A stretch of DNA of 64,000 nucleotides, taken from assembly GCA_015061945.1 (NCBI GenBank), contig SUVP01000002.1, positions 248,001-312,000 of the forward strand, read 5' to 3'. The notes beneath the pieces were generated by a model. The model was not told where the DNA came from, did not search any database, and worked only from the letters and a program-made list of their open reading frames with translations. Within the stretch, counting starts at the first letter, position 1; each line of letters opens with the position of its first letter. The stretch comes from Opitutales bacterium (lineage in GTDB: Bacteria > Verrucomicrobiota > Verrucomicrobiia > Opitutales > Intestinicryptomonadaceae). This document shows positions 1 through 50,473 of this stretch, piece after piece. Position numbers and translations under genes: made by a program.

Positions 1-419
1 CAATTTTTAACATCAAAACTATAATACGATTTACTTTCCTCGAAAAGCATCGACATCATCTTGCGTTGCACCTCTGGCTTACAACGTAAATCGTGATTAC
101 CCAAAACATTTTTTACGGGCACTCCAACAGAAGAAAGTTCGCCCATCATTTTTTGAAGTTGTGCTGGCTCGCCCTCGACAATATCGCCCAAATTCAAGAC
201 ACAATCAAACTTTTCATTTTTAACTTTTGAGATGGCACTTTGAACTTTCGAGAAAGACATTTTATAATCTTTTGCACCGTCATCTGCTCTATCGTCGTCG
301 CAGTGAATATCGGCAAAAGAAAGCATTTTCACAGACTCACTCTTTTTGCACGACACAACAATCGGTGTCAAAATTCCGCCAAAAATTGACGACATAAAAT
401 TTCTTCTACACAACTTCAT
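1..419 (-). CDS. Calcineurin-like metallophosphoesterase, putative Tat lipoprotein (partial, 3' end outside window)
   Basis: The reading frame opens at ATG 419 and runs off the left edge, so only the first 139 residues are visible. They carry the metallophosphoesterase signature in order: FADIHCD near residue 35 (D-x-H), LGDIVEG near residue 79 (GD), and LGNHD near residue 110 (GNHD), which bind the di-metal centre that hydrolyses phosphoesters. The N terminus has a twin arginine (RRNFM), a hydrophobic stretch and a lipobox VVSC at about residue 24, so export by Tat and lipid anchoring are likely. The gene begins 19 bp after the acyltransferase stop codon on the same strand and is probably co-transcribed. 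The substrate cannot be told from the visible part. Confidence 0.85.
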   Translation of the reverse strand, partial: MKLCRRNFMSSIFGGILTPIVVSCKKSESVKMLSFADIHCDDDRADDGAKDYKMSFSKVQSAISKVKNEKFDCVLNLGDIVEGEPAQLQKMMGELSSVGVPVKNVLGNHDLRCKPEVQRKMMSMLFEESKSYYSFDVKN

Positions 420-6915: not shown

Positions 6916-8805
6916 CTATGCCCTTGCGTCGAGTTCTTCCCAGCGTTGCATAAGGTATTCGTCTTCGGCGTTGAGTTCCTCGAGTCGCTTATTGATTGCT
7001 TCGAGCTTATCGAAGTTGGCAACAACATATTCGCTATCTTCGAGCTTTGCCGAAAGCTCGGCACGTTCAGCTTCTATTTCTTCGATACGACTCGGTATAG
7101 ACTCTAACTCAGCTCGTTCTTTATTTGAAAGCTTCGCACGCTTTTTTTGCTCTTGAGTGGTTTGCTGTTTTACAACTGACACTTCTTTCTTTGCGAGCTG
7201 TTCTGCCTTGCGTTCCTTGTATTTCGCCCATTCATCGTATCCACCCGCAAGCTCCACAATCTCGCCCCCCTCATCAAAACAGAAGACGCAGTTGACAATA
7301 TTATTCAAAAACGAACGGTCGTGCGAGACGAGCAATACAGTGCCATCAAAATTCATAAGTGCGTTTTCGAGAATATCGATTGTCGGCATATCGAGATCGT
7401 TTGTCGGCTCATCGAGAACAAGTACATTTGCAGGCACAGAAAACATTTTTGCGAGCATCAGACGATTTTTTTCTCCACCTGAAAGCGTCCCGATATCGCT
7501 CAAAGCTTGCTCTGGCGAAAACAAAAAGTTTTGCAAATATCCCATCACATTCTGCTTTGCTCCATTGACCGAAACAAAGTCTGCCCCGCCACCGATAAAA
7601 TCGAACAAACGCATATTGTCGTCAAGCTCTTTGCGGAGCTGGTCAAAGTACGAAATTTTCAGCGATGTTCCGCATAGCACTTCTCCGTTATCGGCTTTTA
7701 ACGATCCCAACAAAATATTCAACAATGTCGTTTTGCCGATACCATTGCGTCCGATAATCCCGATTTTATCGCCTTTAAAAATTGTCGTCGAAAAGTCTTT
7801 GATAATAGGAGTTCCGTTGTACGATTTTGAAATATTTTTTACATCCAAAACTTTTTGTCCACCGCCGTTTTGCTCTTGCACACGGATATTCACCTGCCCC
7901 AATTTTTCGCGACGTTCCGCACGGATTTGACGGAGCTTCATAAGCTCGCGAACTCTGCCCTCGTTGCGAGTGCGACGTGCCTTGATTCCTTGGCGGAGCC
8001 ACGCTTCTTCTTGTGCAAGCTTTTTATCAAAGACAGCTTCATTGCGTTCACGAGATGCCAACAATTCATCTCTGCGAGAGATAAATTCATCGAACTTACA
8101 ATCAAAAGCAATGAGTTTCCCTCTATCGACTTCAACGACACGGTTTGCGAGATTGCGAAGAAAATCACGGTCGTGCGAGACAAACACAAGAGTCTTTCCG
8201 CACGATTTCAAAAATTTTTCGAGCCACAAAACTGAATCGATGTCGAGGTGATTTGTTGGTTCGTCGAGCAAAAGAATGTCGGGATCGGAAGCAAGTTCAC
8301 GACCGAGCAAAGCACGACGCTTCAAACCAGCAGATGCCGACGAAACTTCGAGTTCTGCGTCGATTTCCAAACGCTCGATTACCGACATAATCTTTGAATT
8401 TACATCCCACGCCCCCAAATCATTTAGTTTAGCCACGAGCGAGTCGAACTCTGTTTGTTCCTCGGCAGTATGCTCTGTTTCAATACGCATGAGCAACTCT
8501 TTGTAACGGCAGAGTAATTTCCCCATATCGCCAATACCCGACGCCACAACTGAGTACACCGACCCATTTAAATTGGTTGGAACGTCTTGAGGAAGATAAG
8601 CCGACTTCACCGATTTCACACGTTCGACAAGTCCAGAGTCGGCTTGGATTATCCCCGCAATGAGCTTTAGAAGCGAAGTTTTACCAGCCCCATTCCGCCC
8701 AACAAGTGCCATAAAATCGCCCTGCTGAATATTGAGATTCGCAGAATCGAGGAGTGGTTTCACACCATATCGCAAAGAAACATCGCTGAGAGAAATTAAG
8801 CTCAT
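6916..8805 (-). CDS. ABC-F ATPase, Uup-like
   Basis: 629 residues from ATG 8805 (the frame opens at 8838, but MSLISLSDVSLRYG is the usual ABC-F start). Two ATP-binding cassettes lie in tandem: Walker A GRNGAGKTS near residue 36 and GRNGIGKTT near residue 355, each with a LDEPTNHLD or LDEPTNDLD Walker B. The linker between them is charged, and a C-terminal coiled coil (about 540-625) resembles Uup. There are no membrane segments. ABC-F proteins act on the ribosome; Uup-type members also influence DNA stability and translation. The first signature motif is ASAGLKRR rather than LSGG, while the second (LSGGEKNR) is intact. Single gene, next to no obvious partner. Confidence 0.88.
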   Translation of the reverse strand: MSLISLSDVSLRYGVKPLLDSANLNIQQGDFMALVGRNGAGKTSLLKLIAGIIQADSGLVERVKSVKSAYLPQDVPTNLNGSVYSVVASGIGDMGKLLCRYKELLMRIETEHTAEEQTEFDSLVAKLNDLGAWDVNSKIMSVIERLEIDAELEVSSASAGLKRRALLGRELASDPDILLLDEPTNHLDIDSVLWLEKFLKSCGKTLVFVSHDRDFLRNLANRVVEVDRGKLIAFDCKFDEFISRRDELLASRERNEAVFDKKLAQEEAWLRQGIKARRTRNEGRVRELMKLRQIRAERREKLGQVNIRVQEQNGGGQKVLDVKNISKSYNGTPIIKDFSTTIFKGDKIGIIGRNGIGKTTLLNILLGSLKADNGEVLCGTSLKISYFDQLRKELDDNMRLFDFIGGGADFVSVNGAKQNVMGYLQNFLFSPEQALSDIGTLSGGEKNRLMLAKMFSVPANVLVLDEPTNDLDMPTIDILENALMNFDGTVLLVSHDRSFLNNIVNCVFCFDEGGEIVELAGGYDEWAKYKERKAEQLAKKEVSVVKQQTTQEQKKRAKLSNKERAELESIPSRIEEIEAERAELSAKLEDSEYVVANFDKLEAINKRLEELNAEDEYLMQRWEELDARA

Positions 8806-8902: not shown

Positions 8903-8935
8903 AAAAAAAATCGCATCGGGGTAGAGCCGATGCGA
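8903..8935 (-). terminator. Terminator of the putative antisense RNA
   Basis: A perfect 9-bp stem, TCGCATCGG (8911-8919) with CCGATGCGA (8927-8935), is followed on the minus strand by eight T residues (8910-8903). No minus-strand gene ends just upstream of it, so it should end a non-coding RNA started near 8997. Confidence 0.8.
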
Positions 8936-8945
8936 CGACCTCAAC

Positions 8946-8958
8946 GAAAGGAGGTGAT
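8946..8958 (+). promoter_or_regulatory. Extended Shine-Dalgarno of the 38-residue peptide gene
   Basis: GAAAGGAGGTGAT gives 13 consecutive bases complementary to the canonical 16S rRNA 3' tail, ending 4 nt before ATG 8963. Most genes here have no comparable site. CTCAA (8940-8944) and TTGAG (8958-8962) could fold the site into a hairpin loop. Confidence 0.7.
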
Positions 8959-8962
8959 TGAG

Positions 8963-9079
8963 ATGAGATTGGTTGTCCTACTTCTAATCATCATCAAGGC
9001 GATATTAGAGATAATAATCGCTTTCTTGTCAAGATATAAACAAAAAAAAGACCGCGGGGATATTCTCCACCGCGGATGA
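8963..9079 (+). CDS. 38-residue hydrophobic peptide, putative type I toxin
   Basis: The ORF starts at ATG 8963 behind an exceptionally strong Shine-Dalgarno sequence and ends at TGA 9077-9079. The peptide is one hydrophobic helix (residues 1-22, e.g. LVVLLLIII and EIIIAFL) followed by a basic tail (SRYKQKKDRG). This is the usual form of small membrane toxins such as Ldr/Fst or Ibs types, although I see no recognisable sequence family. A promoter inside the ORF on the opposite strand would make an RNA covering its ribosome binding site. The last codons overlap the terminator hairpin of the tRNA-Gly transcript. Toxicity is inferred from layout; a structural overlap with no translated product is the main alternative. 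Confidence 0.5.
   Translation: MRLVVLLLIIIKAILEIIIAFLSRYKQKKDRGDILHRG
9004..9032 (-). promoter_or_regulatory. Sigma70-type promoter inside the small ORF
   Basis: Minus strand TTGACA (9032-9027), 17-bp spacer, TCTAAT (9009-9004): 11 of 12 consensus positions. It points towards the ribosome binding site of the peptide gene. Confidence 0.65.
9042..9075 (-). terminator. Intrinsic terminator after tRNA-Gly
   Basis: CCGCGG (9052-9057) pairs with CCGCGG (9070-9075), extended by GGA/TCC with one bulge, and is followed on the minus strand by a run of eight T residues (9049-9042). Confidence 0.8.
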
Positions 9080-9105
9080 CTTTCAACAGAAAGGAGGTTG
9101 TCAAG
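9042..9105 (-). repeat. Second copy of the anti-SD hairpin plus terminator module
   Basis: This segment repeats the layout at 8903-8962: A8 tract, GC hairpin, GATG..AC, CAAC(A)GAAAGGAGGT, read on the plus strand. On the minus strand it gives CAAC, loop CTCCTTTCT, GTTG and then the terminator, in the 3' trailer of tRNA-Gly. No ATG follows its GAAAGGAGGT on the plus strand, so any second peptide gene is lost. Confidence 0.55.
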
Positions 9106-9123
9106 CCATAAAATTCAAACCAT

Positions 9124-9196
9124 AGCGGGCGACGAGGGTCGAACTCGCAACCTCAAGCTTGGGAAGCTCGCGCTCTGCCAATTGAGCTACACCCGC
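9124..9196 (-). tRNA. tRNA-Gly (anticodon CCC)
   Basis: 73 nt that fold as a standard cloverleaf. The acceptor stem is GCGGGTG/CGCCCGC, the anticodon arm is CGAGC-TTCCCAA-GCTTG with CCC at positions 34-36, and the T arm is GCGAG-TTCGACC-CTCGT. The discriminator is T and CCA is not encoded. It is followed by a terminator at 9075-9042. Confidence 0.93.
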
Positions 9197-20343: not shown

Positions 20344-20381
20344 ACAAAAAAAATCTAACACGGTTCGTGTTAGATTTTTTT
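20344..20381. terminator. Bidirectional terminator after tRNA-Leu
   Basis: A perfect 10-bp stem AATCTAACAC (20352-20361) with GTGTTAGATT (20367-20376), loop GGTTC, flanked by an A-run on the left and a T-run on the right, so it can work on both strands. It ends tRNA-Leu transcription (minus). Confidence 0.85.
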
Positions 20382-50417: not shown

Positions 50418-50473
50418 CCAAGCTTTTCATACGATACAAAAAAAGACGTTCCATTTCGGAACGTCTTTTTTTT
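50337..50473 (+). repeat. PEP-CTERM sorting cassette with terminator, copy 3
   Basis: Nucleotide-identical to copy 1 over the ~80 bp of coding cassette, and similar to copy 2 through the downstream GCTTTTCATACGATACAAAAA and the hairpin. Confidence 0.88.
50437..50473 (+). terminator. Terminator of PEP-CTERM gene 3
   Basis: AAAAGACGTTCC (50441-50452) pairs with GGAACGTCTTTT (50458-50469), followed by more T residues. Confidence 0.9.

Follow-up and report, generated by a model that had tools for sequence, protein, structure and literature searches.

In a window of 64,000 nucleotides from an Opitutales bacterium (the whole stretch of DNA that was analysed), we found a locus with the layout of a type I toxin-antitoxin module. 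We slightly favour the reading that it is a lineage-specific locus of this kind, with a working similar to that of dinQ/agrAB. The peptide ORF, its Shine-Dalgarno (SD) sequence, a minus-strand promoter, terminators and complementarity between the strands can all be read in the sequence. In such a module, the plus strand would encode a 38-aa membrane peptide with a single helix behind an extended SD, and a near-consensus promoter within the ORF would drive a minus-strand RNA (unit B) that stops at an intrinsic terminator. As its complementarity to the mRNA is perfect over the 5' region, SD and AUG, this RNA would block initiation, and the trailer of a neighboring tRNA-Gly (unit A) could form imperfect pairs with the same SD region, in the way that agrA stands next to agrB. 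We infer the membrane toxicity of the peptide, its translation and repression, the transcription of both strands and the role of unit A. A type I layout had been claimed in an earlier note on this DNA; its anatomy is real and well beyond chance, but the peptide has no homologue in the genomes searched and neither a promoter nor a terminator is evident on the plus strand. Judging from the letters, a type I module has the best support as an account of how the locus would work; the locus is a candidate member of that class.

The candidate membrane peptide and its Shine-Dalgarno sequence

The ORF occupies positions 8963..9079 of the plus strand, with the ATG at 8963, the stop codon at 9077-9079 and 38 codons by direct reading, and encodes MRLVVLLLIIIKAILEIIIAFLSRYKQKKDRGDILHRG, a candidate toxin-like membrane peptide. 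Its KD19 (the 19-residue Kyte-Doolittle maximum) of 3.05 is the highest in the window, where 638 mechanical ORFs of 25-70 aa were compared. From this single sequence, the only one from which the peptide is known, AlphaFold2 predicted one helix spanning residues 2-37 with a mean pLDDT of 89.8, and K12 and E16 fall within it. The hydrophobic helix with a basic tail described in the earlier note is confirmed by these data. According to the model, the product would be a small hydrophobic peptide with one transmembrane helix, as expected for type I toxins.

Such an ORF is rarely produced by chance. When the DNA 3' of the SD was shuffled with dinucleotides kept and the SD fixed (n=20,000), an ORF of at least 25 aa at a proper SD distance appeared in 1,419 shuffles, a transmembrane-like one (KD of at least 1.6) in 7, and a KD of 3.05 was reached in none. 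Within the first 22 codons, which form the helix, T occupies codon position 2 in 17, against 4 for position 1 and 3 for position 3. Such a hydropathy and position-2 bias are typical of a sequence that codes for a hydrophobic helix, and a minus-strand RNA alone does not account for them.

The extended SD, GAAAGGAGGTGAT, lies at 8946..8958 (the plus strand reads GAAAGGAGGTGATTGAG-ATG from 8946, followed by the 38 codons). It forms a 13-nt complement to the 16S tail GGATCACCTCCTTTCT, as the earlier note had stated; this tail was read in four congeneric genomes, the assembly of the window itself being without a 16S gene. The pairing of -22.1 kcal/mol is the best among 8,943 ATGs in 300 kb of the same genome (the window together with 236 kb sampled elsewhere in it), where gene starts have a median of -1.8 kcal/mol. 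Only 4 of 207 genes pair below -13 kcal/mol, and a mobile element carries two of these. Of the 40 genes in the window, 21 are devoid of a 4-nt SD core and 2 have at least 6 nt, and the genome contains 39 copies of AAAGGAGG against 38 of the reversed control. The host is therefore SD-scarce, as described for Akkermansia and another member of Verrucomicrobiota, both with a conserved CCUCC (PMC10783764). The sequence had been taken for a usual ribosome binding site (RBS): the extended SD is indeed present, but as an outlier in an SD-scarce host it does not fit an ordinary RBS and points to a different control of translation. In the folded mRNA, its GAGGU is paired with an upstream ACCUC (ACCTC in the DNA), leaving the SD partly and the AUG fully paired.

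Signals for plus-strand transcription are less clear. No promoter matching more than 8 of 12 positions was found in the 160 bp upstream of the ORF, an absence that says little, since each strand has about 2.8 matches of 9/12 per kb. At the end of the ORF, the hairpin on the plus strand lacks a T-run, and a plus transcript would therefore continue into the tRNA-Gly in antisense.

The predicted minus-strand RNAs

The promoter of unit B (9004..9032, minus strand) is placed inside the peptide ORF, with TTGACA at 9032-9027, a spacer of 17 nt and TCTAAT at 9009-9004. In a scan with the pattern TTGACA-16..18-TATAAT it is the sole 11/12 sigma70 match in the 64 kb, both strands considered; a simpler scanner missed it because it demands an A at the second -10 position. 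It is followed on the minus strand by ATCACCTCCTTTCGTTGA, a hairpin and a T8 reaching 8903, and then by the ABC-F gene. The hairpin is the intrinsic terminator B (8903..8936), GTCGCATCGG-7-CCGATGCGAT, with a perfect 9-bp stem, a 7-nt loop and the T8 ending at 8903. From the promoter, terminator and fold, we predict an RNA of about 95 nt (8903..8997, minus) that is the complement of the peptide mRNA from its 5' region through the SD and AUG into the first codons. All these elements had been proposed in the earlier note, including the coverage of RBS and start codon, and they are borne out by the sequence. The locus would thus possess a complementary RNA antitoxin with its own promoter and terminator, as type I modules do.

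Terminator B (at 8910) and that of unit A (at 9049) rank among the three strongest on the minus strand of the window. Both are one-sided; bidirectional intrinsic terminators (A-run, perfect hairpin, T-run) are present in the window at 50444-50466 and 20353-20375.

The unit B RNA also contains a 17-codon uORF, MMIRSRTTNLISITSFR, which starts near the predicted 5' end and stops just before the terminator stem. The RNA could be the terminated leader of the ABC-F gene, an attenuator with this uORF that is read through on demand, given that the uORF ends at the terminator and that about 100 nt separate terminator B from the downstream ABC-F start, which is on the same strand (conserved start at 8805, minus). 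However, among 10 congeneric genomes none has such a leader ahead of its ABC-F orthologue, and we consider this explanation extremely unlikely.

Unit A, which was absent from the earlier note, is headed by a tRNA-Gly(CCC) at 9124..9196 on the minus strand. This tRNA gene is without an encoded CCA here, while CCA follows most of the congeneric copies read. Its trailer (9042..9123, minus) contains ACCTCCTTTCTGTTGA, a stem-loop and a T8 terminator, and is a possible partial second antisense RNA. Within it, ACCTCCTTTC-GTTGA-hairpin-T8 is found at 9112-9042, and both units share ACCTCCTTTC.GTTGA followed by a hairpin and then T8. The terminator stems of the two units are offset and the two sequences align badly. 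By itself, the shared 10-mer is weak evidence, as a 10-nt direct repeat appeared in 188 of 2,000 shuffles. Unit A pairs with the initiation region of the peptide at -34.2 kcal/mol, a value equalled or surpassed in 12 of 5,000 shuffles and, with the shared 10-mer held fixed, in 153 of 3,000.

The features shared by the two units also fit a reading in which only the minus strand matters. Here, two tandem small RNAs presenting CCUCCUUUC, similar to the 16S tail, in a loop before the terminator would silence SD-bearing mRNAs in trans, and the ORF would only be a side effect of the complementary sequence. The minus strand holds the best promoter as well as the local terminators, and the stems that present the loop use G-U pairs, which are possible on that strand only. 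A precedent is offered by the alpha-r14/cuckoo RNAs (CcsR, NfeR1), with identical anti-SD motifs in or before stem-loops whose stems differ between copies (PMC10746234). However, units A and B carry CCUCCUUUC and not the conserved CCUCCUCCC of those RNAs, they are only two, and a plausible plus-strand gene is present, so that the motif is explained at once as antisense to the SD of the ORF. The loop exposes the motif in unit A, but in unit B the exposing fold only ties with one that hides it. This reading also leaves the extreme hydropathy, the codon-position-2 T bias and the correctly spaced ATG unexplained, and SD targets are few in this host. A specific action of unit B on rpsU was rejected: its pairing of -23.6 kcal/mol was equalled by 1,328 of 3,000 flank shuffles keeping the anti-SD, being no better than that of other sequences with this motif. 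Finally, no such RNA was found in the genomes of the family or order. We regard trans-acting RNAs without a coding plus strand as unlikely.

Relatives and known systems

The peptide is without known relatives, the locus is lineage-specific and its host context is unusual. A search for relatives of the peptide covered 273 genomes of the order, where no homologue was recovered (best non-self E of 0.2), and phages and plasmids, with the same outcome. The earlier note did not recognise the peptide family, and we likewise obtained no significant match in Pfam, NCBIfam, PHROGs, PADLOC or Rfam. A BsrG match in Rfam was taken as noise (12.5 bits against a gathering threshold of 55, E of 1.3). Synteny within the genus was found neither at the ABC-F gene nor at the tRNA-Gly. 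We discarded an origin from a phage, plasmid or other mobile element, as peptide and DNA matches did not go beyond short chance pieces. The same applies to a widespread family of anti-SD small RNAs, since among 19 genomes of the family and 273 of the order the motif-plus-terminator pattern is present in the own genome only; GTDB-wide and viral scans for this pattern returned matches that look like chance.

The lack of conservation, in an orphan region flanked by non-syntenic genes, could be the result of a chance or decayed arrangement, functionless on both strands beyond the termination of tRNA-Gly, and the frequency of 10-nt direct repeats in shuffled sequences agrees with this. On the other hand, it would require the joint occurrence of a unique promoter, the strongest SD and the most hydrophobic small ORF, and we find it very unlikely. 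For a type I assignment, homology to a described family is supportive but not strictly required, because the class comprises many unrelated toxin families.

With the Fst/Ldr/Ibs and BsrG/TxpA types, the locus has in common a hydrophobic peptide with a charged tail, a strong SD and an antisense RNA, but it has no Pfam or Rfam match at threshold. The antitoxins of the BsrG and TxpA types overlap the 3' end of the toxin mRNA, while the present antisense covers the 5' end.

The closest layout is that of dinQ/agrAB of Escherichia coli, in which a toxic single-TM peptide is accompanied by two tandem small RNAs with terminators on the opposite strand, one nearly fully and the other partly complementary to the dinQ mRNA, agrA being read as a partly degenerate duplicate (PMC3567139). 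The likeness, a small single-TM peptide and two opposite-strand RNAs ending in terminators, is one of layout only. Differently from dinQ/agrAB, the full antisense of the present locus covers both SD and AUG in cis, a tRNA trailer takes the place of the second RNA, and no LexA-type plus promoter was seen.

Ribosome composition and the extended Shine-Dalgarno sequence

In the same genome, rpsU (encoding bS21) has an extended SD, AAGGAGGTGA, which pairs with the 16S tail at -18.5 kcal/mol (G000:C10:17990-18139, minus), and where the rpsU start was read in congeneric genomes, its extended SD gives -17 to -22 kcal/mol. A similar situation is known from Flavobacterium johnsoniae, an SD-scarce host with an exceptional extended SD before one small gene, rpsU; in Flavobacterium, the anti-SD is hidden by bS21, bS18 and bS6, and the extended SD of rpsU is translated by ribosomes lacking bS21, a regulon that in Flavobacteriales usually consists of rpsU alone (PMC9976891). 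The present gene differs in its product, which is a membrane peptide and unrelated, and in its antisense RNA. This bS21 autoregulation, known from Bacteroidota, could extend to the lineage of the host. As the host is SD-scarce and its rpsU has the same kind of SD, translation of the peptide may additionally need bS21-lacking ribosomes, and by analogy with rpsU in Flavobacterium the ORF may be translated mainly by them.

The same parts would be expected of a non-toxic small membrane protein, regulatory or housekeeping, that is preferred by bS21-lacking ribosomes and tuned by its cis-antisense, and by sequence it is indistinguishable from a toxin. The extended SD that rpsU keeps in the genus genomes read although the host is SD-scarce, the SD of the peptide being at least as strong, and the reading of extended SDs by bS21-free ribosomes in Flavobacterium are consistent with such a protein. 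However, the perfect overlap of an RBS by an antisense RNA is more typical of type I modules. The usual restriction of the Flavobacteriales regulon to rpsU also argues against it, and we believe that this possibility is rather unlikely.

Within the type I reading that we prefer, it is doubtful that the module is gated by ribosome composition, with the extended SD read only by bS21-deficient ribosomes and the antisense, mimicking the 16S tail, acting as a second lock. The peptide of such a module would be a sensor of defective 30S assembly. In the literature searched, no description of a type I toxin-antitoxin module in Verrucomicrobiota was found, and we know of no type I module that uses an extended SD in an SD-scarce host. 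If real, the locus ties the antisense control of a membrane peptide to a use of SDs that depends on bS21, as known from Bacteroidota, and points to a route for silencing small SD-bearing genes where ribosomes normally ignore SDs. It is also a concrete and cheap object for testing.

Strong SDs (-17 to -19 kcal/mol), unlike those of the host genes, were also found in genes of a mobile element, including a serine recombinase (G000:C4, ~299-304 kb).
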